A DNA stretch of 64,000 bases from positions 1-64,000 of the forward strand of contig CACFPS010000003.1 in NCBI GenBank assembly GCA_902568235.1. Direction: 5' to 3'. The notes beneath the pieces are model-generated. The model worked only from the letters and a program-made list of their open reading frames with translations, was not told the origin of the DNA and searched no databases. Position 1 is the stretch's first letter, and each line of letters begins with the position of its first letter. A program made the position numbers and the translations under genes. The DNA is from an uncultured Pelagibacteraceae bacterium (GTDB lineage Bacteria; Pseudomonadota; Alphaproteobacteria; Pelagibacterales; Pelagibacteraceae). Shown one piece after another: positions 9,297 to 29,137 of the stretch.

Positions 9297-11519
9297 TTAA
9301 TTAACAAGTGGTTTTCCTGTTGCTAAGGTGTGTTTAATTCTATCTTGAGTTTTTTGTGTTTCAATTAACCTCATAAAAGCATCTAGTTCTAATTTATAAA
9401 CATCATCTTCGGTCAATTTAACTTCAGGAGTTGTGTCCCCGCCACTTAAAACATAAGCCAATTCTTTTCCTACCTGCATTCCATGGTCTAATATAATTTT
9501 ATCATTATATAATTTTTCTAACATTTTGATCATTTTTTCATAAACCGCTTTTCCTGATAATTTGAAATTAGCTTCTTCAGGAGGATTAAAATTATTATTA
9601 TTTTCAATAATTTCTTTTGATGCAGATAACAAGCTATTTCTACTCATGATTTTTTTATCTTCGGGTTTTAAATATTTTAATGGCTCAGCTTCTATTGGAG
9701 ATGTTGCGGTTTTAGCATACCCTATAATATCAAATACTTTTAATGGGGCATAATCAGGATCTTTTTTTGCTTCTTCGGTTTGTGACCATCTCCACAACAT
9801 TTCTTTGCAGCCACCTCCTGCTGGGATTAAGCCAACAATTGTTTCTACAAGCCCAACAACAATATTCGTATGTGATACAACAAAATTGCTTTGACAAAGA
9901 ACTTCAAAACCTCCTCCTAATGCTAATCCAGATGGAGCTGATACAACGGGGAATTTAGAATATTTTAAATGTTTGCAAGTTTCTTGAAAATATTTTACAA
10001 ATTTTTCTATTGATTTAAAATCTCCTTTATCGGCAAAATCCATTGTATAAGATAAATTCACACCCGCAGAAAATTGCATTGCTTCATTAATAATTATTAA
10101 AGGCTTATCAGTAGCATTTTTTAGGCTATCCATTGAGTCATAATCTAAAGCATTAGCTTTTGTTGTAAATTCAACGATATTGAAATCATTAAACCTATAA
10201 ATTTCAGCTGAATTATTCTTATCTAGCTTTTTTGCTTTTGGTTTAATTTTGCCCAAAGTTTCTAATTCGGTATATAATTGTCTTTCACCGTAAAAATTTT
10301 CATCTTTAGTTTTGGATAGATTTTCCAAAAATTTATTATTTTCAAAAGATTCAATTTTTTCAAAGAAATTTTTTACTCCTATTTCTTTTAACATTTCAAA
10401 AGGTCCTTTTGTCCAATTAAAGCCTAACCTCATCGCTTCATCGATATCATTAAATTTGTCAGTAATTTCTGGAACTAATGAAGACGCATACTTAATTATT
10501 TTAGATATAACAGACCACGCATATTCTCCATATTTATCTTTTCTATTTATTAAATTTACGATGTCCATTTTCTCTGAACCTAAATTAAATTTTTTTGATA
10601 TAGAATATTTTCCAGTTTCTAAATTAATTCCTTCTAAAATTTTTTTATTATCAGTTTTATTCATCCTATAAAAGCCACCCTTGCCTTTTCTTCCTGTGTA
10701 ACCAGTTTCTATAAGCTTTTTTACTAAAGGTATTTCTTTTGCAACTTCTTGAAATTGATCATTTTCTGGTAACTCTTTTATAAAACTTTTTAAAACATCA
10801 GCCATCAAATCTATTCCGATTAAGTCATATAAACCAAAAACTCCTGTTTTTGGTATTCCCATCGGTCTACCGAATACAGCATCTGCCTCTTCTATTGTAA
10901 GTTTCATTTTAAATGCTTCTGTCATCGCAACTTGCATTGCAAAAACACCTATTCTGTTTCCTAAAAAACCAGGTGTATCATTGCAAATAATTGTTCCTTT
11001 TCCTAAATCTTTCTCACAAAATTCTTTTAATGACTTTATTTTCTCTAGATCATTATTTTCACTTTTAACTATTTCTAAAAGATCCATGTATCTAACTGGA
11101 TTAAAAAAATGAGTAATACAAAAATCTTTTTTTTCTTCATCGCTTAAATTTTCTGACAATACTTTTATAGGAATTGATGAAGTATTAGATGAAACTATTG
11201 AACCATTTTTTCTTGTTTTAAATATTTTTTCATAAATATTATGTTTAATATCAATTCTTTCTACAACTGCTTCCACAATCCAATCTGCTTGGCTAACTAA
11301 ATTAAAATTATCATTGATATTGCCAATGCTTATGTTTTCAATTTTTGATTTATCAATTAATAATGGAGGTCTTGATTTATAAATTCTCTCTTTAGCTTTT
11401 TCTGTTATCTCTGTAGTTAAATCTAATAATGTTACTGAAATATTTGCATTACATAGTTGTGCGGCTATTCCACATCCCATTGTTCCCGACCCTATTACAA
11501 CTACTTTTTTAATTTTCAT
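9297..11519 (-). CDS. 3-hydroxyacyl-CoA dehydrogenase / enoyl-CoA hydratase fusion (FadN-like order)
   Basis: Bifunctional beta-oxidation enzyme of 740 residues. The NAD-binding Rossmann motif GSGTMGCGIAAQL is at the extreme N-terminus, followed by the dehydrogenase motifs THFFNPVRYMDLLEIV and a C-terminal helical domain. A crotonase domain with the oxyanion-hole segment GLALGGGFEVLC and ETIVGLIPAGGG occupies about residues 440-660. The dehydrogenase-first order is that of Bacillus FadN rather than E. coli FadB/FadJ. Its start overlaps the end of the ABC ATPase by four bases, so it is the last gene of the peptide-type transporter operon. A thiolase is encoded at 23461. Confidence 0.92.
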   Translation of the reverse strand: MKIKKVVVIGSGTMGCGIAAQLCNANISVTLLDLTTEITEKAKERIYKSRPPLLIDKSKIENISIGNINDNFNLVSQADWIVEAVVERIDIKHNIYEKIFKTRKNGSIVSSNTSSIPIKVLSENLSDEEKKDFCITHFFNPVRYMDLLEIVKSENNDLEKIKSLKEFCEKDLGKGTIICNDTPGFLGNRIGVFAMQVAMTEAFKMKLTIEEADAVFGRPMGIPKTGVFGLYDLIGIDLMADVLKSFIKELPENDQFQEVAKEIPLVKKLIETGYTGRKGKGGFYRMNKTDNKKILEGINLETGKYSISKKFNLGSEKMDIVNLINRKDKYGEYAWSVISKIIKYASSLVPEITDKFNDIDEAMRLGFNWTKGPFEMLKEIGVKNFFEKIESFENNKFLENLSKTKDENFYGERQLYTELETLGKIKPKAKKLDKNNSAEIYRFNDFNIVEFTTKANALDYDSMDSLKNATDKPLIIINEAMQFSAGVNLSYTMDFADKGDFKSIEKFVKYFQETCKHLKYSKFPVVSAPSGLALGGGFEVLCQSNFVVSHTNIVVGLVETIVGLIPAGGGCKEMLWRWSQTEEAKKDPDYAPLKVFDIIGYAKTATSPIEAEPLKYLKPEDKKIMSRNSLLSASKEIIENNNNFNPPEEANFKLSGKAVYEKMIKMLEKLYNDKIILDHGMQVGKELAYVLSGGDTTPEVKLTEDDVYKLELDAFMRLIETQKTQDRIKHTLATGKPLVN

Positions 11520-13549
11520 TTTTTAATTTGGTTTTTTTTTAAATCTTCTACACTTATATGACATCTAATTGCATTGCCATCATCGCCAATTTGCCACGGT
11601 GGAGTTTCATTTTTGCATTTGTCTCCCAAAATTCTTGGGCAACGACCTTGAAAACAACAACCTTTTTCTGGTGGTTTTTCTTCTACTATATCTTTAGCAA
11701 CTAATTTTGGTTTAATATCTGGATCAGGTTCAAGAACTGCACCCAATAATACTTCGGTATATGGATGTGAAGGGAATTGATAAACATTTTTTGAAGGTCC
11801 AATCTCACACAATCTTCCTTGATATAAGACAGCAACCCTGTCACTTATCGCCCTAACAACAGCAAGATCATGAGAAACAAAAATATAAGTTGTTCCAAAG
11901 TCTTCTTTTAAAGTTTGCAATAAATTTAAAACTGCCGCTTGTACTGAAACATCTAATGCTGATGTAACCTCGTCACATAAAATTATATCAGGTTTTGCAG
12001 CAAAAGCTCTTGCAACAGCAACTCTTTGTTTTTCACCGCCAGAAAGTTGTCTCGGATATCTGGTCATATAAAATTCTCCAAGTCTTACTTTATTCAATAA
12101 TTCTGCAACTTTTTTTTTTAATTCATTTCCTGTAAGGCTAAAATATAATTTTAATGGCTGAGATAGTATTTGCTCAACTGTATGATTTGGATTTAGTGAC
12201 TCGTCTGGATTTTGAAAAATTAATTGTATAGCTCTTAAATCATTTGAATCTCTTTTCTTAAGATCGCTAGATAACACTCTATCATTTTCAAATTTAATCT
12301 TTCCATCTTTAATCTTTAACAATCCTGCTATTGATTTTAAAATTGTAGATTTTCCACTTCCAGACTCACCTACTAATGCAATTGTTTCTCCTTTTTTTAT
12401 TTCAATATTAATATCTTTTACTGTTGGATTGGTATCAGTAATTTTATTCAAAATTTGGTCTAAAATTTTTTGTTTAGCATAACTAATAGATACGTCTGTC
12501 AAATTTAATATTTCATTAACGCCTTTGCTAATATTTTTTTTTTGGGTTATTGAATTAATTTTATCATTAAACTTTTTTAAATTTTTATAATTAAAACATC
12601 TCACGCTAGTTTGTAATTCTAAAATATGCTCCAAACTTGGAGAATTTTTTTTGCACTTATCTTCTGCAATTTTACATCGATCATAAAAACTACAGCCTAT
12701 TCCTATATTTCCGGGTTGTGGTTGACTACCCGGCATAGAGTCAGGCAATCCTGATAGAGATAGTTTAGGAATAGATTTTAGCAAACCATAAGTATAAGGG
12801 TGAATAGGACTTTTTAATATACTTCTTGCTGGTCCTTCTAAAACAATTTCACCAGCATACATGACTATTATCCTATCACTTACTTGTGCTATTGCTCCTA
12901 GATCGTGACTTACATAAACCATGGATGTTCCTGTATCTTTGGCTATAAACTTTAAAAGTTCTAAAACATGAGCTTGAGTTGTTACATCTAGACCTGTAGT
13001 CGGTTCATCTAACAATAGTAAGTCTGGTTTTCCCGCAAGAGCCATTGCAACTGCCACTCTTTGTTGTTGTCCTCCCGAAAGTTCGTGTGGATATCTAAAA
13101 GCCATTGTTTCTGGCGAAGGTAATCTGACTTTATTAAGTAATTCTGATATTTTTTTATCTCTTTCATTTTTATTAAATTTTGTATGCAATCTTAGAGCTT
13201 CATCTATTTGATAACCTATTTTTAAATTTGGAGTTAAAGATTGGCCAGCATTCTGAGGGATCATGGCTATTTTTCTTCCCCTAATCTGTTCTAAATCTTT
13301 ATTCTTCATCTTTAAAAGGTTAGATGATTCAAACAAGCATTCACCTTCAATTGTATATAATCCTTGTTTAACATAACCCATCATCGCAAGTGCAAGAGTG
13401 CTTTTTCCAGACCCAGATTCTCCTACAATGCCGACAGTTTCACCTTTTTTTATATTAGTTGTTACATTTCTAAGAATTGATATTTCATCATTTTTTTTGC
13501 TTCTAAATCCAATTGAGAGGTTTTTTACTGAATGAATAATATTTTCCAT
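11516..13549 (-). CDS. Peptide-type ABC transporter ATPase, two fused ATP-binding domains (DppD-DppF-like)
   Basis: A 677-residue cytoplasmic protein with two complete ABC cassettes. Each has a Walker A GESGSGKST, and the signatures are LSGGQQQRVAVAMAL and LSGGEKQRVAVARAF with DEPTTGLD and DEVTSALD. Each cassette carries the cysteine-containing C-terminal extension (CSFYDRC and CCFQGRC) typical of oligopeptide/nickel ATPases. It replaces the separate DppD and DppF subunits. It lies five bases downstream of the DppC-like permease and overlaps the beta-oxidation gene. The substrate is unknown: members import di/oligopeptides, opines, glutathione or nickel complexes. Confidence 0.94.
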   Translation of the reverse strand: MENIIHSVKNLSIGFRSKKNDEISILRNVTTNIKKGETVGIVGESGSGKSTLALAMMGYVKQGLYTIEGECLFESSNLLKMKNKDLEQIRGRKIAMIPQNAGQSLTPNLKIGYQIDEALRLHTKFNKNERDKKISELLNKVRLPSPETMAFRYPHELSGGQQQRVAVAMALAGKPDLLLLDEPTTGLDVTTQAHVLELLKFIAKDTGTSMVYVSHDLGAIAQVSDRIIVMYAGEIVLEGPARSILKSPIHPYTYGLLKSIPKLSLSGLPDSMPGSQPQPGNIGIGCSFYDRCKIAEDKCKKNSPSLEHILELQTSVRCFNYKNLKKFNDKINSITQKKNISKGVNEILNLTDVSISYAKQKILDQILNKITDTNPTVKDINIEIKKGETIALVGESGSGKSTILKSIAGLLKIKDGKIKFENDRVLSSDLKKRDSNDLRAIQLIFQNPDESLNPNHTVEQILSQPLKLYFSLTGNELKKKVAELLNKVRLGEFYMTRYPRQLSGGEKQRVAVARAFAAKPDIILCDEVTSALDVSVQAAVLNLLQTLKEDFGTTYIFVSHDLAVVRAISDRVAVLYQGRLCEIGPSKNVYQFPSHPYTEVLLGAVLEPDPDIKPKLVAKDIVEEKPPEKGCCFQGRCPRILGDKCKNETPPWQIGDDGNAIRCHISVEDLKKNQIKK

Positions 13550-13553
13550 AAAT

Positions 13554-14447
13554 TTAAACCGGCGCCTTTGTAGATCTATCTATGCCTAATGCTTTAGCAA
13601 ATGCATCTGCTGTCAAATTAATTCCAATTATCAAACTGCTCAATCCAACTATTGGTGCAATAACTGACCAATAAGCAAATGACATTAAACCTCTTGCATT
13701 TGAAATCATTAATCCCCAATCAGGAGTAGGCGGACTCACTCCAAATCCTAAAAACGACAATGAACTAAATCCTAACAACATCCATGACCATCTCATTGCC
13801 CCCTCAACCAATATAGCATCTCTTACATTTGGTATAATTTCATTCCATATAATTGAAAAGTTACTATGACCTCTTGCACGAGCTGAAACAATAAAATCTT
13901 TTGCAATTACATCGTGAGTAGCTGCTCTGGCAACTCTTACTATTCCCTTGCCATAGAAAAAACCAAGTGCTGGAATTAACACTTCTGTTGAAGTGCCTAA
14001 AAGAGAAACTATTAATAGCATTGCTAAGATCCAAGGTATGGATAAAAAAGCATCTACTATTCTCATGACTACATCATCAATTTTTCCTCCTACTAATCCA
14101 CAAAAAATTCCCAATAATCCTCCCCAAAGTAAAGCGATTATAGAACCAAAAAAAGTTATAGTAAGCGCAGTTCTTCCTCCCATAATTGTTCTTGTAAAAA
14201 CATCTCTACCTAAACTATCAGTTCCAAACCAATATTCAGATGATGGCGCTTGAAGCATGAGCGAAGGATCAATTGCCTTGTAATCATAAGGTGCTAAATA
14301 TGGACTCAAAAATGCTAAAAGAATATGAAAAGCCAAAATACTTAAACCAATAAAACCGGAAGGCCTGGAAGCCATTGTTTTTAATACCTCTAAAACTTTT
14401 GAAAGTAAATTTTTTTGTTTTTCTTCAGAAATTTTACTTATCTCCAT
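13554..14447 (-). CDS. Peptide-type ABC transporter permease (DppC-like)
   Basis: Inner-membrane permease of 297 residues with about six membrane segments. It has the N-terminal leader helix region and the FGTDSLGRDVFTR motif characteristic of DppC/OppC subunits, and an EAA-type loop (ARARGHSNFSIIWNEIIPN) that couples to the ATPase. It is separated by one base from the DppB-like gene and four bases from the fused ATPase, so it is part of a four-gene transporter operon on the minus strand. Confidence 0.93.
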   Translation of the reverse strand: MEISKISEEKQKNLLSKVLEVLKTMASRPSGFIGLSILAFHILLAFLSPYLAPYDYKAIDPSLMLQAPSSEYWFGTDSLGRDVFTRTIMGGRTALTITFFGSIIALLWGGLLGIFCGLVGGKIDDVVMRIVDAFLSIPWILAMLLIVSLLGTSTEVLIPALGFFYGKGIVRVARAATHDVIAKDFIVSARARGHSNFSIIWNEIIPNVRDAILVEGAMRWSWMLLGFSSLSFLGFGVSPPTPDWGLMISNARGLMSFAYWSVIAPIVGLSSLIIGINLTADAFAKALGIDRSTKAPV

Positions 14448-14448
14448 A

Positions 14449-15405
14449 TTATTTTCTTATTTGTAAACTTTTTAATCTTGGGTTTAACATTAAGGTCATT
14501 AAATCTGCTATTAGGTTGATACTCACATAAATTGAAGCAAGGATAATAGCTAAAGCTTGAACAGTTGGTAAATCTCTATTAGATATCGACTCAATTACTA
14601 AACGACCAAGACCTGGATAATTAAATACTACTTCTGTAACCACAACTCCTCCTAAAAGCCAGGCAATAGTTAAAGCTACAACGTTTATTGCTGGCAATAA
14701 AGCGTTTGGTAAAACGTGTTTAAATACCATTTGCCAATATGGCACTCCTTTTAAAATTGCCATTTGGACATAATCAGTTGCCATTACTTGGATAACACTT
14801 GAACGGACCATTCTAGCCATATGAGCAGTCATTATCATCGCAATTGCTATCACAGGTAAAATTATATTTGGAAGTAATTCAAAAAATGTAACATCTGTGG
14901 GCACTATTACAATGCCAGGTAGCCATTGGAGCCAAATAGCTACAATTAAAATTAACAAAGTAGCACTAATAAATTCAGGAATAGTCATTGCAAAAATTGT
15001 TATTGTTGAAATAGTTATGTCTGGCAGTTTATCTCTCCAAAGAGCAGTGATGATACCTAGTATTAAAGCTAAAGGAATACCAATAATTATAGCAGCAGAA
15101 GCTAAAACCATTGAATTTTTTATTCTTGGTCCTAAAACTTCATTAATTGGCATCTGGCCACTTAAAGAATATCCAAAATCTCCTTGAATAACATTATATG
15201 CCCAAGATAAATATCTTTCATAAGCAGGAATATCTAACCCTAATCTTTTATAACATGCTTCTAATGCTGCTCCATAAGCTTCTCTCTCAAGATAAGTTGT
15301 ACAAGCATCTCCCGGCAAAACCTCCGTTCCAATAAAAGTGATTAATGAAACAATGAATAAGGTTATTAAACCTAAAAAAATTCTTTTAATAATTAAAAAC
15401 AACAT
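14449..15405 (-). CDS. Peptide-type ABC transporter permease (DppB-like)
   Basis: Inner-membrane permease of 318 residues. The N-terminus has the DppB/OppB pattern: a first membrane helix, then a periplasmic part with EVLPGDACTTYLEREAYG, followed by GDFGYSL, five more helices and the EAA loop near KGVPYWQMVFKHVLPN. The FNYPGLGRLV segment near the C-terminus is also typical. It is the first gene after the binding-protein gene and is separated from it by a hairpin. Confidence 0.93.
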   Translation of the reverse strand: MLFLIIKRIFLGLITLFIVSLITFIGTEVLPGDACTTYLEREAYGAALEACYKRLGLDIPAYERYLSWAYNVIQGDFGYSLSGQMPINEVLGPRIKNSMVLASAAIIIGIPLALILGIITALWRDKLPDITISTITIFAMTIPEFISATLLILIVAIWLQWLPGIVIVPTDVTFFELLPNIILPVIAIAMIMTAHMARMVRSSVIQVMATDYVQMAILKGVPYWQMVFKHVLPNALLPAINVVALTIAWLLGGVVVTEVVFNYPGLGRLVIESISNRDLPTVQALAIILASIYVSINLIADLMTLMLNPRLKSLQIRK

Positions 15406-15458
15406 AATTAAGATTACCGCTCTTGATTTTAAAATTAATTATTAATAAATGAAACAAA

Positions 15459-15488
15459 TTTTACAGGCCTAATTAAAGGCCTGTAAAA
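15459..15488 (-). terminator. Hairpin between binding-protein and permease genes
   Basis: A perfect 12-bp stem (TTTTACAGGCCT / AGGCCTGTAAAA) with a six-base AATTAA loop lies between the frameshifted binding-protein gene and dppB on the minus strand. No clean T-run follows in the transcript, so it may act as an mRNA 3'-end stabiliser or partial attenuator rather than a full terminator. Placement matches three other transporter operons in this window. Confidence 0.75.
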
Positions 15489-15500
15489 CAATATTTTATA

Positions 15501-16989
15501 TTAATCTACTGATAATGTGTGCCACCTAATTGAGAAAAACTCTATTTCATCAAGATTTTTCACTCTTGAAGAAGTTACAACTAGTTTGGATACATGGTAT
15601 GGAATCATAGTTCCAGCTTCTTCCCATAAAGTTTTTTGAGCATTTTGATAAGCTTTTTTTCGTTTATTAAAATTAAGCTCTCCTCTAGCATCAGCTAAAT
15701 TCTTGTCAAATGATGCACTTTTATAAAAAGACTCATTCCATTTTGCTCCACTATGATAAGCTTCATGTAAAATACTATCAGCTGGTCTTTCGTTCCAACG
15801 TGTCATTGATACTGCTTTTTTCATCCAAGTTTCTTTCCAGTAACTTTTTGATGGAGTCATTTTAACTTCAGCTTTAATTCCTGCTTTTGCTAATTGTTGT
15901 TGTAGCACTTCACCAATTGTTGGCCACGTAGGTTCTTTGGTTGAAACATGAATAACCATTTCTATTCCATTTGGATATCCAGCTTCTTTAAGAAGTTTTT
16001 TAGCTTTTTTAATATCCTGAGGACATTTCATATTTAGACGATATTGATCAGATGGTGCTACAGGTGTATCGCAAGCTACTGTTGCAGCTCCACCCATAAC
16101 AAGATCAACGAGTTCTTGCCTATCTACAGCTAAACGTACAGCTTTTCTAACTTTTGGATTGTCAAAAGGAGCAGTATCTGTTCTCATAACCATGCCTCTC
16201 CAATTTCCTGTAGGTATTACAGAAACATTAAATTTAGAATTGCCATCAAATATTTTTTTCTGGGCAAACGGAACATATCTATTCATGTCAATCTGGCCTG
16301 TAAGAAGAGCTTGTACTCTTGCTTCACCATCAGGTATAGCAATTACATGGACTTCAGCAACTTTTGGAGCACCTTCCCAGTAATTTGGATTTGCTTTAAG
16401 AATAGTTGTTCCTTCTGCATCAAATTTTTCAACTATAAAAGGACCAGTTCCAATTCCTGTTTTTCCAATAGTATCTCCGGATCCTGAAGGTATCATTCTT
16501 AATCTATAATCGGTTAATAGTAGCGGAAAGTCAGCAAATGAAGTATTTAACTTCATTTTAACAGTATGAGAGTCAACCACCTCTATATCTGTTACCGAAC
16601 TCATGCTTTTTTTTTGCTGGTGAACCAATGTCAGGATCTTTAACTCTCATTAAAGAATATTTTACATCTTCTGCGTCAAAATCAGATCCATCATGAAATT
16701 TAACTCCCTTACGAAGTTTAAAAGTCCACTCAGTTGCATCTGCATTTCCAGACCAATCCGTAGCCAATTCAGCTGAAGTAACGCCTTTTAAGTTCTTTCT
16801 TACTAAACGGTTTTGTGTCATTATTACAACTTGAAACAAACGTCCTTTAGTAATCGCGTCTAAGTTTGTATCTTTTCCAAATCCAAGATCATGTGATAAT
16901 TTAAAAACACCACTAGATGCATTGGCAGCAGAAAATGATACTATTACAGATATCAATGAAACTGATATCAATTTTATAATGTTTTTCAT
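15501..16989 (-). pseudogene. Family-5 (peptide/nickel-type) ABC substrate-binding protein, frameshifted
   Basis: Two ORFs in different frames together make one periplasmic binding protein of about 495 residues. The N-terminal part starts at the ATG at 16989, which has a GAGGGA ribosome site and a signal peptide ending in ANA; the upstream start in the track adds 20 spurious residues. It runs through the SBP_bac_5 segment WTFKLRKGVKFHDGSDF. The C-terminal part continues with SFADFP through the family landmarks to 15501. The frame changes at a run of nine A (minus strand, 16607-16615); eight A would restore one frame as AKKSMSSV. It may be a sequencing or assembly error, a real recent inactivation, or a slippage site. 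The intact remainder and intact operon argue against old decay. Confidence 0.85.
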
Positions 16990-17109
16990 ATTTTCCCTCT
17001 CTTTAAAAAAAAGGAAGTTAACATTTAATAATGTTATAGCAACAGTCAAAATTGTTACGTTTTTATTGAATGTATTAAATAGTTAATTTAATTTACAAAA
17101 AATTATTAA

Positions 17110-18342
17110 ATGAGCAAAAATTTAAAAAATATTAGATTTTCAGTAAAACCAATCGCACCTGAAAACGATGAACGTCCACTAGAATTGGCAAGAACTATAG
17201 GTGTACATCCACTAACTTATCAAGAGTTACCTTTTGATCCAGAATATTCAATTTATGCTGGACGTCTTACTCCTGAAAAACTTACTAATGCAACTGCAGA
17301 AGAAATGTATTGGAAAATAAGAAAAGAATTAATTTTTCGACATACTGGGGAACATCCTTATGAAATATCAGGACCTGATGCTCTTAAACTTTTACAAAAG
17401 ATTTTTCCTAGAGACATTTCAAAAGTTAAGAAAGGAAGATGCTCTTATCAATTTGCTTGTTATCATGACGGTGGAATGATTACTGATGGATTGTTATTAA
17501 GAATAGATGATGATCGATATTGGTTTGCACAAGCAGAAGGAGATATGTTTTCATGGTACAAGGCTCAAGCGGAAGGTCTTAATGTAAAAATTACCGATCC
17601 TGATGTATGGATAAGTCAAATACAAGGACCTTTATCAATGCAACTTCTTGAAAACTTAATTGATTCAAAATTAGCTGAACAATGGAAATATTTTGATTGG
17701 AAAGAAGTTAATATAGTGGATGAAAAAGTTATAATTAGTCGGACAGGATTTAGCAATGAACTTGGTTGGGAAATATATTTTCGTCCGGAAAATAATATTA
17801 AAAAATTAGGAGATTTAATACTTAAAGAAGGCAGCAAATTAGGAATGATAATTACTGCTACCCCTGTTTTTAGATGTAGACGAATAGAGGCAGGACTTTT
17901 ATCAGCAGGACAAGATTTCACAAATCATACAACACCATTCTCTGTGGGATTGGGTAAATTTGTTGATCTTGAAAAAGATTTTATAGGACGAGATGCTTTA
18001 AAAAAAGCAAGTAAAGAAATTAGAACATGGGGTATTCGAATAGAAAATAGTGTTGGTATCAAAGGAAATACTATAAAGCTTGAAGGAAAAAATATTGGAC
18101 AATTAACTTCTAGCACATGGTCTCCATTTCAAGTTTGTGGAGTTGGCATTGTACATTTAATTAATTCTAGTATTGGCCCTGGTGCAGTAGTTGATGTTGA
18201 ATGCACAGATGGAAAAAGTCATAAAGGTGAGATTTGTAAATTACCAATGTATGATCCTAAAGGTGAAATTGTACGTGGAATAAATAAAACCATACCTTCG
18301 AAACCTGAGCCTTGGATTGGAATAAGTACGAAAAATAAATAA
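17110..18342 (+). CDS. GcvT-fold aminomethyltransferase/THF-dependent demethylase family protein
   Basis: A 410-residue cytosolic protein of the glycine-cleavage T-protein/DmdA superfamily, which transfers methyl or methylene groups to tetrahydrofolate. The folate-binding domain and the C-terminal barrel are recognisable from IQGPLSMQLLENL, the SRTGFSNELGWEIYF strand, CRRIEAGLLSAGQDF and VGLGKFVDLEKDFIGRDAL. The long N-terminal segment with AGRLTPEKL differs from plain GcvT, and no gcvP or gcvH is nearby, so a glycine-cleavage role is unlikely. It opens the plus-strand cluster and is divergent from the peptide-type transporter. Substrate unknown; demethylation of an N- or S-methylated compound is the best guess. 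Confidence 0.8.
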   Translation: MSKNLKNIRFSVKPIAPENDERPLELARTIGVHPLTYQELPFDPEYSIYAGRLTPEKLTNATAEEMYWKIRKELIFRHTGEHPYEISGPDALKLLQKIFPRDISKVKKGRCSYQFACYHDGGMITDGLLLRIDDDRYWFAQAEGDMFSWYKAQAEGLNVKITDPDVWISQIQGPLSMQLLENLIDSKLAEQWKYFDWKEVNIVDEKVIISRTGFSNELGWEIYFRPENNIKKLGDLILKEGSKLGMIITATPVFRCRRIEAGLLSAGQDFTNHTTPFSVGLGKFVDLEKDFIGRDALKKASKEIRTWGIRIENSVGIKGNTIKLEGKNIGQLTSSTWSPFQVCGVGIVHLINSSIGPGAVVDVECTDGKSHKGEICKLPMYDPKGEIVRGINKTIPSKPEPWIGISTKNK

Positions 18343-18361
18343 TAAAAGTATAACTTGTCTC

Positions 18362-19060
18362 GTGAATAAAATTCAAAAAAAAATCATTTCAATAGGGGGC
18401 GGAGGATTTACTCATCAGTCAGACAAAAATTTAGATGAATTTGTTTTAAGTCAATGTGAATCAAAAGATATTAAAATTGGTTTTTTAGCAACTGCAAGCA
18501 AAGATGATAAAAAAAAAATTAATTTTTTTTATAATAGATTTGAAAAATTAAATTTACAATTATCACACTATAATCTTTGTACAGAAGTTAAAAACTTCTC
18601 AGAATGGATATTAAATAAAGACATTATCTATATTGGTGGTGGAAATACATCTTACATGTTGAATGTATGGAGGGAAAATAATTTATCTAGATATTTTAAG
18701 AGAGCCTATGAAAAAGGTATTATTTTATCAGGAGTAAGTGCGGGGGCAGTATGTTGGTTTGATTGGATTTTGTCTGACTCTTTAGGTTCAATTTTAAAAC
18801 CAATTAAAGGTATAAATTTAATTTCAGGAAGCTGCACACCTCACTCTTCCATTGCTGAAAGAATAAATCAATTTGAATTAAATATTAAAAATAATAAATT
18901 GCCTCCTGGAATAGCTATTGATGATGGGGTTGCTGTCCTTTTTATTGACGGAAAACCCTCTCAGGTCTATTCTTCAAGAAAAAATCATGATGCTTATTTT
19001 ATTGATAAAAATAAAAAAATTAGTCTAAAAGAATATATTAAGAAAAAAGATTATGAGTAA
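18362..19060 (+). CDS. Peptidase E / S51-family hydrolase
   Basis: A 232-residue cytosolic protein of the S51 (peptidase E/cyanophycinase) family with a class I glutamine-amidotransferase-like fold. The nucleophile elbow GVSAGAVCW carries the catalytic serine, and the YIGGGNTSYML strand and the GSCTPHSS histidine segment match PepE-like proteins. PepE cleaves Asp-X dipeptides; an isoaspartyl or amide substrate is possible here. It starts at GTG with no obvious ribosome site, 19 bases after the GcvT-fold gene, and overlaps the next gene by eight bases. It suggests that the imported substrate may be a dipeptide-like conjugate. Confidence 0.85.
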   Translation: MNKIQKKIISIGGGGFTHQSDKNLDEFVLSQCESKDIKIGFLATASKDDKKKINFFYNRFEKLNLQLSHYNLCTEVKNFSEWILNKDIIYIGGGNTSYMLNVWRENNLSRYFKRAYEKGIILSGVSAGAVCWFDWILSDSLGSILKPIKGINLISGSCTPHSSIAERINQFELNIKNNKLPPGIAIDDGVAVLFIDGKPSQVYSSRKNHDAYFIDKNKKISLKEYIKKKDYE

Positions 19061-20213
19061 AAATATAACTCCAAGTAAAAAAATTCATAGTATTGAAGAT
19101 GCAAGAAAATTGGCAAAAAAAAGAGTTCCTAGATTAATGTTTGATTTTGTTGATGGTGCTTCTGGAGATGAAAGGCTTTGTGAAATAAATAGTACTGCTT
19201 TAGATCAAATAAGATTAGAACCCAAAGTTCTTAGAAATATAGAAAAGAGAAATTTAAAAAAAAACTTTCTTGGTAATGATTTTAACTATCCTTTTGGTTT
19301 TGCTCCTATGGGAATGTGTAATTTAACATGGCCTGGAGCAGATAAAATGTTAGCTGAAGAGAGTATTGAAAATAATATTCCTATTTGTGTATCAATGGCA
19401 TCCTCCACTTCTTTGGAAAAAATGTATAAATTGTCCCAAGGTCATTCTTGGCTTCAATTGTATATATATCAGGACGAAAGTTTTGTGATGGAGCTTTTAG
19501 AAAGAGCGCAAAATACTGGTTACAAAGTAGCAATACTTACGGTAGATGTTCCAATACAGTTTAGGAGAGCAAAAGATGAAAAAAATGGTTTCACTGTTCC
19601 TTTTAAAATTGGCCCAAAACAATTTTTTGACTTTGCAACTCATCCTAGATGGTCTTTAACAACTTTATTAAATGGTATTCCAAAACCAATGAATTTTATA
19701 ACTTCAAAAAGGGGAAATAAATTTGTAAGAAGTGAAAGTAGAGGTGCTACAGATTGGGAAACTTTAAAAAGAGTTAGAGATGCTTGGAAAGGTAAATTAA
19801 TTGTAAAAGGAGTTATGTCACCAGAGGATGCTGTTAAAATCAAAGATACAGGCGCTGATGCAATTCAAGTTTCTAATCATGGTGGTAGACAACTGGAAAG
19901 TGCCACTTCTTCTATTAATGCCCTACCTTTAATAAGAAAAATTTTAGGAAAAGAATTTCCAATAATTTTTGACAGTGGTATTAGAAGTGGAAGTGATATC
20001 GTTAGATCGCTTGCATTCGGTGCAGATTATGCCATGATTGGTAGACCTTTGATGTATGGTATGGGCGCTGATGGGGCAAAAGGATTAAGGAGAGTTTTAA
20101 ATATAATTAAAGAAGAATTAAGTACAACTTTGGGATTAGTTGGTTTAAATGATATAAACGATATTTCTTCGGAAATTATTGCAGAAAAGTTTTTTAAGGA
20201 TATGAAATATTAA
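19053..20213 (+). CDS. FMN-dependent 2-hydroxyacid oxidase/dehydrogenase (LldD/glycolate-oxidase family)
   Basis: A 386-residue flavoenzyme of the alpha-hydroxyacid oxidase family that oxidises an (S)-2-hydroxyacid to the 2-oxoacid. Family signatures are present: the N-terminal FDFVDGASGDE, the FMN-binding GFAPMGMCNLTWP region, and SNHGGRQLES with the catalytic histidine and arginine. The phosphate-binding FDSGIRSGSDI is followed by GADYAMIGRPLMYG. The substrate could be lactate, glycolate, mandelate-like or a larger hydroxyacid. Overlap with the PepE-like gene and a 3-base gap to the ThDP enzyme gene suggest that its 2-oxoacid product feeds that enzyme. Confidence 0.92.
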   Translation: MSKNITPSKKIHSIEDARKLAKKRVPRLMFDFVDGASGDERLCEINSTALDQIRLEPKVLRNIEKRNLKKNFLGNDFNYPFGFAPMGMCNLTWPGADKMLAEESIENNIPICVSMASSTSLEKMYKLSQGHSWLQLYIYQDESFVMELLERAQNTGYKVAILTVDVPIQFRRAKDEKNGFTVPFKIGPKQFFDFATHPRWSLTTLLNGIPKPMNFITSKRGNKFVRSESRGATDWETLKRVRDAWKGKLIVKGVMSPEDAVKIKDTGADAIQVSNHGGRQLESATSSINALPLIRKILGKEFPIIFDSGIRSGSDIVRSLAFGADYAMIGRPLMYGMGADGAKGLRRVLNIIKEELSTTLGLVGLNDINDISSEIIAEKFFKDMKY

Positions 20214-20216
20214 TTT

Positions 20217-21959
20217 ATGGCAAACAAAAAAATTAGAGGCGGTTCATTAATAGCTAGAGCAATTCGAGATAAAGGAATTGAAAAAGTATTTACTTTATCT
20301 GGAGGTTTTTGCAACCCAGCTTTAGAAGGTTTTATGGAATGTCAAATGGAAGTAATAAATTGTCCTCATGAGCAGATAGCAGGGCATTTAGCTGACGGTC
20401 ATACTAGAATTACTCGTAAACCTTCTGTTTGTTTGGTTGGTCCTGAAGGTTTTGCTAATGCGGTGCCTTCTATGATGGAAGCATGGGGTGAAAGATCGCC
20501 AGTTATTTTTATAACAGGCTCCAGTAGTTTAAAAAGACAAGGATCAGGAGGTTTTAAAGAAATTGATGATGTTTCAATAGCCGCGCCATTAACAAAATAT
20601 AGTGCAAGTATAACCGATGGAACGCGTATTAGAGAATTTGTAGACAAAGCATATAGAATTGCAACCAATGGATACCCTGGGGCTGTTCACTTAAGTGTCC
20701 CTGTTGATATTATGTTTTCTTCATTTGCTGAAGATGCAGGACTTGAGGAAAGGCCTTTTTCTCATCAAAAAAAACCAATAGCAAAAGCATGGCCAGACCC
20801 AAATCATATTACAGAAATATTAGAACTAAGTTGTAATTCAAAAAAACCAGTTTTAATTGGTGGACATGGAATATGGTGGTCAGGATCTGAAAAAAAATTA
20901 GAAGAAGCTGGTAACAGTTTAAATATTCCAATTTTTAATATTCCTTATCATCAAAAATTACTTGGCGAAGAAGCAGAAGCTTATATGGGACTGGCTGATA
21001 TCCATCAATATCCTCCATCTAAATTTGCAATTGATGAGTCTGATTTAATTTTAATGGTAGGGGCAAGATTAGATAATCAAATGAATTTTGGTAATCCTCC
21101 TCTTTTTCCAAAAAGTACTAAACTTGTTTGTATTAATGGTTCACATGAAGAAATTGAGCTTAATAGAGCAGCAGATATAAATCTTTTATGTGACACTGGT
21201 GTTTTCTTAGATACTTTATCAAAACTTAAAAAAAATAATAAATGGAACTTAGATAGAAAATGGTTTGATCAAAATAAAACTAAAAAGAAAGAATGGGTTG
21301 ATAAATCATTGAAAGACTTAAGCATTGAGACAAAAGAAGCAGAAATAAATGGAGGTAAAATTCATCCTCTTCAATTAGCTCTGGATGTTCAAGATGCGAT
21401 GGGAGAAAAAGATTGGTTGGTTATAGATGGTGGCAATACTCATTTTTGGTCAGAGATAGCTATTAATATTGCCGGAGCTAATGGAAAAAAACTTGGAGGA
21501 ATATTGCACCCCGGAACCTTTAGTATGTTAGGAGTTGGTGTTCCTTTCGCTATATCTGCAAAAAATGTTCATCCAAAATCAAATGTTGTCCTGATAAGTG
21601 GTGATGGAGCTTTTCTTTCTGGCGGTTTATCAATAGAGGCGGCTTTTCAAGAAAAAAAACCAATTGTTGTTGTCATAGATAACAATGGTGGTTTGGATTG
21701 TATATCTCAACAACAAGAACGTTTGTTTGAAAGTGGAAAACATTTTGCAACAGACTTTAGAGATATACCATTTCATAAAATCTTTGAAGGATTTGGAGGT
21801 CATGGAGAACTTGTTACAAAAAGAGAACAGCTTGCCCCTGCACTAAAAAGAGCTATAGAGAGTGGTAAAACAGCGTGTGTAAATGTAAAAGCAAAAGGAG
21901 TAATTAGCCCTATAGTTGCTGCAGTGAGCGATAAAAGAGATAAGGCTTCAATAGAATAA
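20217..21959 (+). CDS. Thiamine-diphosphate-dependent enzyme (acetolactate-synthase-like large subunit)
   Basis: A 580-residue ThDP enzyme with Pyr, central and PP domains in order. The activating glutamate is E52 in PHEQ, and the diphosphate/magnesium motif begins SGDGAF and ends about 30 residues on at DNNGG. The Pyr domain ends with a typical HLSVPVD. Family members include acetolactate synthase, glyoxylate carboligase, 2-hydroxyacyl-CoA lyase, oxalyl-CoA decarboxylase and benzoylformate decarboxylase; I cannot choose among them by eye. No small regulatory subunit is adjacent, which argues against branched-chain amino-acid synthesis. Downstream of a 2-hydroxyacid oxidase, 2-oxoacid decarboxylation or 2-hydroxyacyl-CoA cleavage is the likely role. 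Confidence 0.88.
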   Translation: MANKKIRGGSLIARAIRDKGIEKVFTLSGGFCNPALEGFMECQMEVINCPHEQIAGHLADGHTRITRKPSVCLVGPEGFANAVPSMMEAWGERSPVIFITGSSSLKRQGSGGFKEIDDVSIAAPLTKYSASITDGTRIREFVDKAYRIATNGYPGAVHLSVPVDIMFSSFAEDAGLEERPFSHQKKPIAKAWPDPNHITEILELSCNSKKPVLIGGHGIWWSGSEKKLEEAGNSLNIPIFNIPYHQKLLGEEAEAYMGLADIHQYPPSKFAIDESDLILMVGARLDNQMNFGNPPLFPKSTKLVCINGSHEEIELNRAADINLLCDTGVFLDTLSKLKKNNKWNLDRKWFDQNKTKKKEWVDKSLKDLSIETKEAEINGGKIHPLQLALDVQDAMGEKDWLVIDGGNTHFWSEIAINIAGANGKKLGGILHPGTFSMLGVGVPFAISAKNVHPKSNVVLISGDGAFLSGGLSIEAAFQEKKPIVVVIDNNGGLDCISQQQERLFESGKHFATDFRDIPFHKIFEGFGGHGELVTKREQLAPALKRAIESGKTACVNVKAKGVISPIVAAVSDKRDKASIE

Positions 21960-21962
21960 TTT

Positions 21963-22298
21963 ATGGTAACTTTTTCATCACATCTTTTAAATTCAATAAA
22001 TGGAACTCATGCAAGTGGTGTAAAAGTAATAATTTATCAAATAAATGCAAATGGAGATAAAAAAAAATATTTTGAATCAGAAACTGATGATGGTGGTAGA
22101 ATTTTTCAAGAATTTAATCTTACTAAAGAAGACTGTCTTTGTAATTACGAAATGTTATGCAAAACAGGAAATTATTTTTTAGAAGAAAGAATTGTTTCTG
22201 AAATTGTAGTAAAATTTAAAATGTCAGATCCTAATAAAAAATATCATTTGCCAATTATAATTTCCCCGAACGGTTATTCTATTTGGTGGTCAAAATAA
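21963..22298 (+). CDS. Transthyretin-like protein (HIUase family) with altered C-terminal signature
   Basis: A 111-residue protein of the 5-hydroxyisourate hydrolase/transthyretin family. The HIUase catalytic histidine (H7 in SSHLL), arginine (R46 in DGGR) and second histidine (H95 in YHLP) have counterparts, and the GYS strand near the C-terminus aligns. The terminal YRGS tetrapeptide that defines HIUases is WWSK here, so hydroxyisourate hydrolysis is doubtful. No other urate-pathway gene is visible nearby. It lies four bases after the ThDP enzyme and ten before the DmdA-like gene, so it is a structural part of this catabolic operon. A lactone- or imide-type ring hydrolysis is a reasonable alternative. 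Confidence 0.82.
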   Translation: MVTFSSHLLNSINGTHASGVKVIIYQINANGDKKKYFESETDDGGRIFQEFNLTKEDCLCNYEMLCKTGNYFLEERIVSEIVVKFKMSDPNKKYHLPIIISPNGYSIWWSK

Positions 22299-22308
22299 GA
22301 TTAGAATA

Positions 22309-23427
22309 ATGAGCTCTCACGATTTGAGCTTGTCTAGACGAATTAGACAAACTCCTTTTACAAATAAAGCAGAAGAACATGGTGTTTCTGGTTTTACCGT
22401 TGTAAATCGAATGCTTTTACCCAAGGCTTTTAAAAAATCAATTGAAGAAGATTATTGGCACCTTAATTCTAATGTTCAAATATGGGATGTGTCTTGTCAA
22501 AGACAAGTCCAAATTACAGGGCCAGATGCTGAAAAATTAGTTCAATTAATGACACCTCGTTCAATTAAAAATATGAAAGTGGGTAAATGTCTATATGTTC
22601 CATTAATAGATGAAAACGCAGGTATGATTAACGATCCTGTTTTACTTAAAATTGAAAATAATAAATTTTGGATATCTATTGCAGATTCAGATGTTCTGTT
22701 GTGGACTAAAGGAGTTGCAATTAGTTACAATTTTAAAGTTAATATAATTGAACCTGAAGTTTACCCATTGGCAGTTCAAGGACCTAAATCAGAAGAATTA
22801 ATGGTATCAATTTTTGGAGAAAAAATTAGATCTATTAAATTTTTTAACTTTGGTTTATTTAATTTTCTAGAAAAAAAACAAGTTATTGCTCGATCAGGTT
22901 ATAGTAAGCAAGATGGTTTTGAAATTTATTTTGAAGGATATGAAGCGGGAGAAAAACTTTGGGATACAATTTGGAAAGCTGGAAAAAAATTTAATATTTC
23001 TGCAGGTTGTCCTAATTTAATTGATAGAATAGAAGCAGGATTAATGTCGTATGGAAACGACTTTACTATAGAAAATAATCCGTATGAATGTAATTTAGGA
23101 AAATATCTTAACGAAACATCTCATAATTTTATAGGAAAGTCTGCACTAGAAAAAATCAAAATAGACAATATTAATAAACAAATGAGAGGTATTATTTTTG
23201 ATGAGAATCCTTGCCCCACATGTTCCCATCCTTTTCCAGTTTATTCGGAAAATAATGAAAAAATAGGACAAGTTACTTCAGCTATTTATTCGCCTAGAAT
23301 AAAGAAAAACATAGGTCTTTCAATGATTTCAAAAAAATACTGGAATAAAGGAAATAAATTAATAATTGAAACTCCTGAAGGGAAAAGAAGAAATGGCGTT
23401 ATAACATCTTTACCATTTCCAGAATAA
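22309..23427 (+). CDS. DmdA-like THF-dependent demethylase (GcvT superfamily)
   Basis: A 372-residue protein of the GcvT/DmdA superfamily that strongly resembles DMSP demethylase from SAR11: the N-terminal SRRIRQTPFT, the MLLP segment, WDV..QRQVQI, the NDPV strand, FWISIADSDV and GYSKQDGFEIYF all fit the DmdA pattern as I remember it. DmdA moves a methyl group from dimethylsulfoniopropionate to tetrahydrofolate, giving methylmercaptopropionate. However, no dmdB/C/D or acuI genes are adjacent and a second GcvT-fold gene lies in the same operon, so it could be a DmdA relative acting on another methylated substrate. Length matches DmdA. Confidence 0.72.
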   Translation: MSSHDLSLSRRIRQTPFTNKAEEHGVSGFTVVNRMLLPKAFKKSIEEDYWHLNSNVQIWDVSCQRQVQITGPDAEKLVQLMTPRSIKNMKVGKCLYVPLIDENAGMINDPVLLKIENNKFWISIADSDVLLWTKGVAISYNFKVNIIEPEVYPLAVQGPKSEELMVSIFGEKIRSIKFFNFGLFNFLEKKQVIARSGYSKQDGFEIYFEGYEAGEKLWDTIWKAGKKFNISAGCPNLIDRIEAGLMSYGNDFTIENNPYECNLGKYLNETSHNFIGKSALEKIKIDNINKQMRGIIFDENPCPTCSHPFPVYSENNEKIGQVTSAIYSPRIKKNIGLSMISKKYWNKGNKLIIETPEGKRRNGVITSLPFPE

Positions 23428-23460
23428 ACATATATAAAGAATAAAATTATAAATTAAAAA

Positions 23461-24585
23461 ATGTATAAAGCAGTTATAGCAGGGTATGCAAGATCTCCAT
23501 TTACTATGGCCAAAAAAGGAGAGTTAATTGATATTAAGCCAGTTAACTTATTATCAGAGGTTATCAAAAACCTAGTTTCAAAATCAAAAGTTAACTCAAA
23601 AGATATTGAAGACATTATTATTGGATGCGCATTTCAAGTAGGTGAACAATGTTTTAATATTGGCAAACTAGTTTCTTTTTTATCTGAAATGGACATTAAA
23701 ACTTCAGGTATGACAGTAGATAGATGGTGCGGATCTTCAATGGAAGCTATTCATATTGCTGGTGGAAAAATTGCAATGGGATCAGGTAAAGTTTTTGTTT
23801 GCGGAGGAGTAGAAAGCATGACTCGTGTAACAACAGGATTTGAGCCTATGCCTTATCCTTATACAGAAACAGAAAATCCTAACGTTTATTTTTCAATGGG
23901 CATAACAGCTGAAAATGTTGCAAAAAAGTATGGCATAACAAGAAAAGAGCAGCAGGGATTTGCAATATCTAGTCATCAAAAAGCTTCAGAAGCTCAGTCA
24001 AAAGGAAATTTTAGTGATGAAATTACTATTGTAGGTAATTGTTCTAAAGATGGAAATATTAGACCAAATAGTAACCAAGAAGTTTTAGATGGTTTAAAAT
24101 TAGCTTTTGATCAAAACGGTACTGTTACTGCTGCTACCTCATCTCCTTTAACCGATGGTGCTGCTGCAACATTAATATGTGAAGAACAATATGCTAAAGA
24201 TAATAACTTAGAAATTTTAGGAAGAATTGTTTCTACTTCTGTACAAGGTTGTGCTCCTGAATTAATGGGATTAGGCCCTATTGGAGCATCAATAAAAGCA
24301 TTAAAAAGAGCTAAACTATCTATTAAAGATATGGATATAGTTGAAATTAATGAAGCTTTTGCTTCTCAATCTTTGGCTTGTATTAAAGATTTAGAAATAG
24401 ACAATAAAAGAGTTAATTTAGATGGTGGAGCGTTAGCTCTAGGACACCCTCTTGGAGCTACAGGAGCAAGAATAACAGGAAAAGCTGCAGCTTTATTAAA
24501 AAGAGAAAATAAAAAATATGCTTTAGCAACTCAATGTATAGGTTTGGGAATGGGTATTGCTACTATAATAGAGTCAGTAAATTAA
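23461..24585 (+). CDS. Thiolase (acetyl-CoA C-acyltransferase)
   Basis: A 374-residue cytosolic thiolase. The nucleophilic cysteine is C90 in DRWCGSSMEA, the NEAFASQ motif is present, the histidine lies in ALGHPLGATGAR and the second cysteine in ATQCIGLGMG, so the active site is complete. It cleaves 3-oxoacyl-CoA or condenses two acetyl-CoA. It lies 33 bases after the DmdA-like gene and ends one base before the convergent permease. It could serve the catabolic cluster by thiolytic release of acetyl-CoA, or complete the FadN-like enzyme at 9297, which has no thiolase beside it. Confidence 0.93.
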   Translation: MYKAVIAGYARSPFTMAKKGELIDIKPVNLLSEVIKNLVSKSKVNSKDIEDIIIGCAFQVGEQCFNIGKLVSFLSEMDIKTSGMTVDRWCGSSMEAIHIAGGKIAMGSGKVFVCGGVESMTRVTTGFEPMPYPYTETENPNVYFSMGITAENVAKKYGITRKEQQGFAISSHQKASEAQSKGNFSDEITIVGNCSKDGNIRPNSNQEVLDGLKLAFDQNGTVTAATSSPLTDGAAATLICEEQYAKDNNLEILGRIVSTSVQGCAPELMGLGPIGASIKALKRAKLSIKDMDIVEINEAFASQSLACIKDLEIDNKRVNLDGGALALGHPLGATGARITGKAAALLKRENKKYALATQCIGLGMGIATIIESVN

Positions 24586-25440: not shown

Positions 25441-25445
25441 AATAT

Positions 25446-26699: not shown

Positions 26700-26708
26700 A
26701 AATAAAAA

Positions 26709-26731
26709 GGGCGGTTATTAAATAACCGCCC
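26709..26731 (-). terminator. Terminator-like hairpin between potD-like and potB-like genes
   Basis: GGGCGGTTATT and AATAACCGCCC form an 11-bp perfect inverted repeat around a single A (in practice a 9-10 bp stem with a small loop). In the minus-strand transcript it is followed at once by TTTTTATTT and then the ATG of the PotB-like permease. This is the form of an intrinsic terminator placed inside the operon, expected to favour binding-protein mRNA over permease mRNA. Confidence 0.88.
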
Positions 26732-26768
26732 TAAATATAATATATAATTATAGTCTTTAAAACTTAAA

Positions 26769-27884: not shown

Positions 27885-27890
27885 TTATCC

Positions 27891-27919: not shown

Positions 27920-28003
27920 TTACAACAATAACGGTATTGAGAGTCAACTGCTCAATTCCTCTAATTAAGCTTTATTTTGCTATATAATTTAATGAAGAAT
28001 TAA

Positions 28004-29092: not shown

Positions 29093-29137
29093 AGAGAAGT
29101 TTATAAAACATTTGTTTAAAATTTTTGCAATAGTTAA

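Follow-up and report, generated by a model that had tools for sequence, protein, structure and literature searches.

A conserved, previously undescribed catabolic gene block of SAR11 with two GcvT-fold methyltransferases

Seven co-directional genes (g1 to g7) in a SAR11 genome form a real, conserved and previously undescribed catabolic unit. They lie within the window, the 64,000-nucleotide stretch of DNA analysed here, which comes from an uncultured Pelagibacteraceae bacterium. We found no earlier description of this gene set in the open-licence papers searched. On balance, we favour a role in which the operon imports and dismantles a small compound built on a 2-hydroxy- or 2-amino-acid skeleton, which bears two or more activated (onium) methyl groups and probably an amide or cyclic-amide bond.

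Surface-ocean heterotrophy is dominated by SAR11 and SAR116, and the compounds on which these groups grow are only partly known. About one in six of the genomes sampled carries the conserved operon, which points to a methylated substrate not yet on any list and gives direct access to dark dissolved organic matter.

Layout and spread of the gene block

All seven open reading frames are on the plus strand, divergent from a peptide-type ABC transporter (Table 1). They are separated, from g1 to g7, by 19, -8, 3, 3, 10 and 33 bp, in agreement with the tight spacing originally predicted. Their Pfam domains are, in order, GCV_T with GCV_T_C; Peptidase_S51; FMN_dh; TPP_enzyme N, M and C; Transthyretin; GCV_T with GCV_T_C; and Thiolase N and C.

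Table 1. Genes of the block and of the divergent transporter, with positions in the window.
Feature	Position	Strand	Properties
Fused peptide-type ABC transporter ATPase (oppDF/dppDF-like)	11516..13549	-	677 aa; blastp 39-45% to oppDF of relatives; order conserved
Peptide-type ABC permease dppC	13554..14447	-	ORF; order conserved in relatives, 87-94%
Peptide-type ABC permease dppB	14449..15405	-	ORF; order conserved; 86-97% in SAR11, 61% in SAR116-like/f24
Peptide-type solute-binding protein dppA, split in two frames	15501..17049	-	ORFs 15501-16628 and 16573-17049
g1, GcvT-fold methyltransferase	17110..18342	+	410 aa; PF01571/PF08669; predicted fold; folate residues
g2, peptidase S51 / PepE-cyanophycinase-like hydrolase (accessory)	18362..19060	+	232 aa, GTG start; PF03575
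g3, FMN-dependent 2-hydroxyacid dehydrogenase, (S)-mandelate/L-lactate dehydrogenase type	19053..20213	+	386 aa; PF01070
g4, ThDP-dependent lyase/decarboxylase	20217..21959	+	580 aa; PF02776/00205/02775
g5, HIUase/transthyretin-fold hydrolase	21963..22298	+	111 aa; PF00576; C-terminal WWSK for YRGS
g6, DmdA-related GcvT-fold methyltransferase	22309..23427	+	372 aa; own operon clade; Tyr at Trp position
g7, acetyl-CoA acyltransferase-type thiolase (SAR11-specific accessory)	23461..24585	+	374 aa; TIGR01930 403.7 bits, over cut-off

The block is conserved well beyond the window. Among 197 genomes from the order, g4 turned up in 34, always as a single copy and always in one genus. The order g2-g3-g4-g5-g6 is identical in all 30 of these loci that were retrieved (the window's own and 29 others), and in 20 wider regions every contig of sufficient length holds the whole of g1-g7 together with the dpp transporter that diverges from it. 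Essentially all of the best 80 GTDB loci also keep the block. The core g3-g4-g5-g6 recurs in f142, SAR116-like and f24 genomes, which include another small-genome alphaproteobacterial family and one family more. This synteny rules out chance adjacency of the seven genes and bears out the original prediction of a single undescribed catabolic unit.

The divergent transporter, which had been proposed to carry the substrate, belongs to the unit, as it is conserved in SAR11, SAR116-like and f24 genomes. Its dppA is split at an A9 run in this assembly, while relatives are intact at 494-508 aa. The nearest solved relatives of dppA are HbpA, YliB/GsiB and AgaA. Compared with the PDB, the TRAP and dppA binding proteins have distant relatives only, and the ligand hint is limited to a glutathione/opine-type subgroup. 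Most lineages have a transporter beside the block, and its type varies (peptide ABC, TRAP or family-3 binding protein). Larger genomes add a LysR regulator, and SAR116-like and f24 versions an extra Ldh_2 protein. Downstream of g7, the pot transporter, DoeA-like and EutA-like genes (24586-31054) were left out of the unit because they are neighbours in SAR11 only; other genes stand there in L098, L100 and L157.

The two GcvT-fold proteins

Both g1 and g6 are GcvT-fold proteins of the methyltransferase type, as had been predicted. By sequence and phylogeny, g6 is not the DMSP demethylase DmdA. It resembles DmdA of Pelagibacter ubique (PDB 3tfh) in fold, in 47% sequence identity and in the retained folate pair Glu204/Tyr206, and it scores 536 bits on the NCBIfam DMSP demethylase equivalog, above the cut-off of 410. 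However, the DMSP-specific Trp (W171 in the alignment of PMC7487153, W197 in 3tfh numbering) is Tyr in 74 of 76 g6 sequences, the motif not being found in the other two. The operon copies of g6 alone form a clade (support 93/95), with a single origin in 99% of bootstrap trees, and canonical DmdAs group separately with support of 100/100. The same genome also encodes a canonical DmdA elsewhere, 76% identical to that of HTCC1062 and with its Trp kept. By its own criterion, the original prediction would have shrunk to chance adjacency had 22309 grouped firmly with authentic DmdA sequences whose neighbours elsewhere are unrelated; the tree gives the opposite, a clade linked to the operon. Despite the equivalog score, it is therefore extremely unlikely that g6 is an authentic DmdA in a DMSP locus with unrelated neighbours, since its neighbours are conserved across families; we rejected such a locus on the strength of the tree, the change at Trp197 and the canonical DmdA encoded elsewhere. 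As g6 nevertheless passes a curated DMSP-demethylase model, metagenomic dmdA counts may be inflated by a protein that probably has a different function.

The structure model of the other GcvT-fold protein, g1, aligns with T-protein, DmdA and DMGO at TM 0.75-0.79, and the folate-contacting Glu/Tyr pair is present. The DMSP-specific Trp position is Phe in all 67 g1 sequences, and g1 scores 199 bits on the DmdA equivalog model, below the cut-off of 410. Distant relatives of g1 adjoin choline/betaine-type transporters, TMAO demethylase and sarcosine oxidase.

We find that g1 is interchangeable with other methyltransferases at its slot. A homocysteine methyltransferase (HcyMT) occupies this position in L157, a SAR11 single-cell genome of about 1.0 Mb and the one case of this replacement; that partial genome has no g1 orthologue elsewhere. 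An MTTB-family protein (PF06253) adjoins g2 in SAR116-like genomes and the operon in f24, again where there is no g1 orthologue. MTTB-family proteins together with MtgC-sized corrinoid proteins occur in four of four genomes with the MTTB version (SAR116-like and f24) and in none of six SAR11 and f142 genomes tested. Both g1 and HcyMT are present in L100 and in each of the 33 f142 loci whose upstream sequence extends far enough. Occupation of one slot by g1, HcyMT and MTTB does not prove that they catalyse the same reaction. Because an HcyMT or a corrinoid-type MTTB can stand in the g1 slot, our preferred reading of g1 is a cobalamin-free demethylase that acts on an onium compound, probably a quaternary ammonium. 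Replacement by MTTB and a BHMT-like protein makes a quaternary ammonium donor more likely than originally stated, although the closeness of g6 to a sulfonium demethylase sits awkwardly with it.

This taxonomic split parallels glycine betaine demethylation, in which SAR116 and roseobacters use corrinoid MTTB-type MtgBCD, and SAR11 has a cobalamin-free Bhmt without MtgC (PMC12478193). The usual SAR11 solution here is instead a GcvT-fold protein, and the operon has additional oxidative and hydrolytic genes. HTCC1062 also encodes GcvT-fold paralogues of unknown function, SAR11_1265 and SAR11_1303 (PMC3160333). In the expected stretch of G011, which was taken as HTCC1062, the GcvT-fold proteins share no more than 32% identity with g1 or g6, and on this ground we rejected the idea that either is SAR11_1265 or SAR11_1303; g4 is absent from G011.

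Oxidative and hydrolytic genes and the proposed pathway

The g3 and g4 proteins follow the logic of the (S)-mandelate pathway, in which an FMN dehydrogenase and the ThDP enzyme benzoylformate decarboxylase take a 2-hydroxy acid to a 2-oxo acid and then cleave it. The g3 protein aligns with mandelate dehydrogenase over its whole length, and the catalytic SNHGGR (SNHGxR motif) is present in all 73 sequences, yet the equivalent of the substrate-binding Tyr24 (GOX numbering) is Phe in the operon set. The most conserved gene of the set is g4, with 67-93% identity across five families and invariant ThDP motifs (GDG...NN and HEQ). It is nearer to 2-hydroxyacyl-CoA lyase, acetolactate synthase and benzaldehyde lyase than to the mandelate-pathway enzyme, but falls below the equivalog cut-offs of the first two (best 265.7 against 587 and 246.1 against 600 bits); its predicted structure is poor (pLDDT 67).

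The accessory genes vary among lineages. SAR11, SAR116-like genomes and G864 keep g2, which is absent from f142 operons. The thiolase g7 is present in 34 of 35 SAR11-type loci and none of 42 f142-type loci; it thus lies outside the conserved core, and the thiolase step originally assigned to the pathway does not hold for the unit as a whole. With the thiolase restricted to SAR11 and the S51 peptidase missing in one lineage, the proposed end products, a 2-oxoacid and an acyl-CoA, do not apply to all lineages.

The description of g5 as an altered transthyretin-like protein is correct for its C-terminus, where YRGS has become WWSK, WWSQ or similar in all 79 sequences. It does not extend to the catalytic His/Arg/His stretches of HIUase, which are kept (SxHxL in 79/79, the GR motif in 73/79, YHxP in 79/79). 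Thus g5 shares fold and catalytic stretches with the 5-hydroxyisourate hydrolase of the SAR11 purine operon (PMC11698098), but differs from it in the WWSK ending, in a TIGR02962 score of 66.8 bits (cut-off 87.45) and in its surroundings, as no purine-catabolism neighbours were recognised among the loci examined. It is probably the "second hydroxyisourate lyase" of Braakman et al. 2025, a homologue excluded there as having a different function and found in genomes without other purine genes (PMC11698098). This orphan of SAR11 and SAR116 thereby gains a genomic context.

From the observed gene content and its conservation, we infer the reactions, their order and the substrate. Uptake would be through the peptide-type ABC transporter, or a TRAP transporter in other lineages. 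The g1 protein would then move one methyl group to tetrahydrofolate; in relatives, HcyMT with homocysteine as acceptor, or an MTTB-family enzyme with a corrinoid, may do so. A second methyl group would be taken by g6, as a DmdA-like enzyme of different specificity. The amide or ring may be opened by g5, with the S51 hydrolase g2 assisting in most lineages. Oxidation of the 2-hydroxy acid by g3, a quinone-type FMN dehydrogenase, would yield a 2-oxo acid, which g4 would cleave or decarboxylate. Products would be handled in SAR11 by the thiolase and, in a subset, also by an IlvE-type aminotransferase.

More specifically, it is possible, and we propose it tentatively, that g1 is the first cobalamin-free folate-dependent quaternary-ammonium demethylase, replacing corrinoid MTTB in streamlined SAR11, within an undescribed pathway for an abundant, unrecognised marine methylated solute, and that g5 is a new transthyretin-fold hydrolase. 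If true, the exchange of a corrinoid enzyme for non-orthologous ones that use folate or homocysteine would show clearly how streamlined, cobalamin-poor cells rebuild a pathway.

Alternative readings of the operon

It is rather unlikely that the substrate is a methionine-derived sulfonium 2-hydroxy acid. An example is 4-dimethylsulfonio-2-hydroxybutyrate (DMSHB), an intermediate of DMSP synthesis. Here, g6, g1 or both would demethylate DMSHB to 4-methylthio-2-hydroxybutyrate and g3 would oxidise this to 4-methylthio-2-oxobutyrate, from which the IlvE-type aminotransferase would form methionine, unless g4 decarboxylated it. Such a route fits the kinship of g6 with a sulfonium demethylase, the 2-hydroxyacid dehydrogenase g3, the aminotransferase that follows g7 in 20 of 35 SAR11-type loci, and the need of SAR11 for methyl sources, as it lacks MetE and MetH (PMC12478193). 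It would, however, leave the HIUase-like gene, the S51 gene and the peptide-type transporter without a role, and the DMSP-specific Trp is absent from both GcvT proteins. Furthermore, MTTB-family enzymes are known to act on amines, not on sulfoniums.

A methylated purine or ureide pathway is quite improbable. In it, g5 would open a methylated hydroxyisourate- or hydantoin-like ring, Ldh_2 and FMN dehydrogenases would take a ureidoglycolate-like 2-hydroxy acid as their substrate, and methyltransferases would strip the N-methyl groups. The HIUase catalytic stretches of g5 and the added Ldh_2 protein, a member of the family of ureidoglycolate dehydrogenase, are consistent with this. Yet no urate oxidase, OHCU decarboxylase, allantoinase or purine transporter was recognised in any version of the operon, and the sub-cut-off score of g5, its lost YRGS and the finding in PMC11698098 that the second homologue occurs where a genome has no further purine genes also argue against it. 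The purine/HIUase pathway as such was rejected because no purine genes were recognised and the motif is lost. Less probable again is a reading in which the GcvT-fold pair and its flanking enzymes serve to detoxify internal metabolites or to recycle their C1 units. Every enzyme comes from a generic family and two have a folate-linked fold, but the adjoining transporter of changing type, the LysR regulator and the patchy presence typical of niche catabolism point to use of an external compound.

Several known compounds were considered as the substrate. The homarine pathway is described as using Mgd (PMC13390433), which the operon does not contain, and it was set aside. Evidence was too scant to adopt gonyol, pantothenate, ergothioneine, betaine-lipid head groups, mycosporine-like amino acids or arsenobetaine. 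One point against the favoured reading is that in f82 genomes g4 and g5 alone stay together, which suggests that this pair may have an independent life.

Layout and conserved core of the operon

Seven plus-strand ORFs, with intergenic gaps of 19, -8, 3, 3, 10 and 33 bp, lie exactly where the original prediction had placed them. Their Pfam assignments, from g1 to g7, are GCV_T, Peptidase_S51, FMN_dh, a ThDP enzyme, Transthyretin, GCV_T and Thiolase. The genome (1.12 Mb, 80% complete; relatives in Pelagibacteraceae) contains the window as its contig C3.

Features of the window and of compared loci (L, compared locus; f, family-level group)
Feature	Location	Strand	Observation
g1-g7	Window 17110-24585	+	Proposed catabolic operon
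dpp transporter	Window 11516-17049	-	Divergent, peptide-type
dppA	Window 15501-17049		Reading frame interrupted at an A9 run (~16606-16615), leaving two ORFs; single intact gene of 494-508 aa in relatives
740-aa ORF	Window 9297-11519		Just past the dpp transporter; start resembles 3-hydroxyacyl-CoA dehydrogenase (FadB type)
pot-type ABC transporter, then DoeA-like and EutA-like genes	Window 24586-31054		Ectoine-like, under curated cut-offs (444 bits vs 613; 199 vs 318); adjoins the operon in many SAR11 genomes
Partial second g4 and g1 copies	L101:7063-8146		Single-cell genome; rearranged, ahead of the operon
Operon amid carnitine-type genes	L157:245-21711		AG-414-J16; gamma-butyrobetaine dioxygenase-like, BKACE-like, thioesterase-like ORF, betaine-type transporter
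Asparaginase-type gene (f82)	L206:11559-12629; L215:10865-11860		Directly before g4-g5; remaining operon not nearby
Distant g1 relative (f32)	L088:8583-15022; L092		Adjoins BisC-type S/N-oxide reductase, choline-type fused ABC permease, SDR

The frame split in dppA probably reflects an indel in this strain or its assembly. The ORF with the FadB-type start could be a partner of the thiolase g7. The true substrate of the ectoine-like set may be something other than ectoine.

The gene order is strongly conserved. Within the order, g4 is present in 34 of 197 genomes, as a single copy, and every carrier belongs to the same genus. The arrangement g2-g3-g4-g5-g6 is kept in all 30 fetched loci (the window's own and 29 others), and in 20 wider regions each contig of sufficient length carries g1-g7 with the divergent dpp transporter.

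A scan of GTDB genomes at a loose threshold gave 540 stretches with a g4 relative; the best 80, on which our comparison drew, comprise two blocs and three short contigs. The SAR11-type bloc (35 loci among the best 80) carries g1 to g7; 20 of these loci have an IlvE-type aminotransferase 3' of g7, and in 11 a gene for a family-3 binding protein separates g1 from g2. The second bloc (42 loci among the best 80) is family f142, possibly the AEGEAN-169/SAR11-V group, deposited mostly as “uncultured Alphaproteobacteria”. Its order is opp transporter, homocysteine methyltransferase, g1, g3, g4, g5, g6, OsmC and enoyl-CoA hydratase; neither g2 nor g7 was found in these 42 loci.

More distant versions delimit the core. 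Two SAR116-like (f110) genomes, G407 and G573, have g2, an MTTB-family protein and a LysR regulator, then g3-g4-g5-g6, together with a dpp transporter in G407 and with Ldh_2 and a TRAP transporter in G573. Within f24, g6-g5-g4-g3 of G1003 is adjoined by MTTB, ketopantoate-reductase-like, FAH-family and Ldh_2 genes and a TRAP transporter, while G864 has g2, a dpp transporter, g3-g6 and LysR, with no MTTB gene found in the stretch read. In f82, g4-g5 alone stay together. These versions define a core of g3-g4-g5-g6, a transporter and an additional methyltransferase, to which g2 is frequently added; g7 is confined to SAR11. The f82 asparaginase-type gene may stand in for the S51 hydrolase. The partial duplicates in L101 look like an amplification chimera.

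Enzymes of the core and the distinction of g6 from DmdA

The g3 protein aligns full length with (S)-mandelate dehydrogenase and is probably quinone-linked, because it includes a segment that soluble oxidases lack. SNHGGR is retained, and the Tyr24 equivalent is Phe. The nearest relatives of g4 are 2-hydroxyacyl-CoA lyase, acetolactate synthase and benzaldehyde lyase, all under their cut-offs; its identity of 67-93% is far above the conservation of neighbouring genes. The catalytic stretches of HIUase are retained in g5, but all 79 copies have WWSK or a similar motif in place of the C-terminal YRGS. By taxa and context, g5 fits the second hydroxyisourate lyase that Braakman et al. (PMC11698098) excluded as serving another function, a likeness drawn from their description.

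Operon copies of g6 are phylogenetically distinct from DmdA. The protein scores 536 bits in the NCBI DMSP demethylase equivalog (cut-off 410) and shares 47% identity with the P. ubique DmdA of known structure; a second protein of the same genome, on contig C2, is 76% identical to P. ubique DmdA. A 43-sequence tree groups the operon copies together (93/95, with a single origin in 99% of bootstrap trees), separate from canonical DmdAs (100/100). In DmdA, specificity for DMSP is assigned to one Trp, and folate is contacted by a Glu and a Tyr (PMC7487153); the spacing there (171, 178, 180) matches W197, E204 and Y206 of 3tfh. In 74 of 76 g6 copies the Trp is replaced by Tyr, and in all 67 g1 copies by Phe, whereas the Glu and Tyr are retained in both. 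By sequence and phylogeny, g6 is not DmdA: it has its own tree group and the Trp-to-Tyr change, and the genome carries a separate DmdA on C2. Tyr at position 197 does not by itself identify an operon copy, because a DmdA-like clade of f24 genomes outside the operon (L226, L228) also has Tyr; that clade is likely another over-annotation as DMSP demethylase.

We found no description of this gene set in the open literature searched. The individual parts are known families. What appears to be new is how they are combined, together with the subfamilies of g5 and g6 and the series of replacements at g1.

The g1 position and the proposed pathway

In the single cell AG-414-J16 (L157), a homocysteine S-methyltransferase (PF02574) occupies the exact g1 position; no g1 orthologue was found in this partial genome, where the best other match (36%) is g6. 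SAR116-like and f24 genomes have an MTTB-family protein (PF06253) in place of g1, and no g1 orthologues were found in genomes with this version. In alignment, the pyrrolysine position of one such protein (L205) is Ala. This is expected of the non-Pyl MTTB class, whose characterised members act on quaternary amines. Each of the four SAR116-like/f24 genomes tested encodes MTTB and corrinoid proteins of MtgC size; neither kind was found in the six SAR11/f142 genomes tested. The same taxonomic split is reported for glycine betaine, for which SAR11 has Bhmt and no MtgC (PMC12478193). In the f142 genome G356, PF02574 matches only the homocysteine methyltransferase of the operon.

Distant g1 relatives adjoin choline/betaine-type permeases, TMAO demethylase and sarcosine oxidase, and others a BisC-type S/N-oxide reductase. 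A structure model of g1 with a pLDDT of 80 matches T-protein, DmdA and dimethylglycine oxidase. From the slot replacements, the MTTB/corrinoid split and the neighbours of distant relatives, we infer that g1 is an onium demethylase, which probably acts on a quaternary ammonium compound.

The pathway would run from import through two methyl transfers, amide or ring hydrolysis, 2-hydroxy acid oxidation and ThDP cleavage to disposal, the methyls leaving activated groups for folate (or homocysteine, or corrinoid). Thermodynamics favour onium donors for direct methyl transfer to folate. Beside a quaternary ammonium substrate, we keep two rivals: a hydroxy acid with a sulfonium group, of which DMSHB is an example, and a methylated ureide. 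The BisC-type neighbourhood in f32 may form a reductive pathway for an oxidised onium compound, for example DMSOP.
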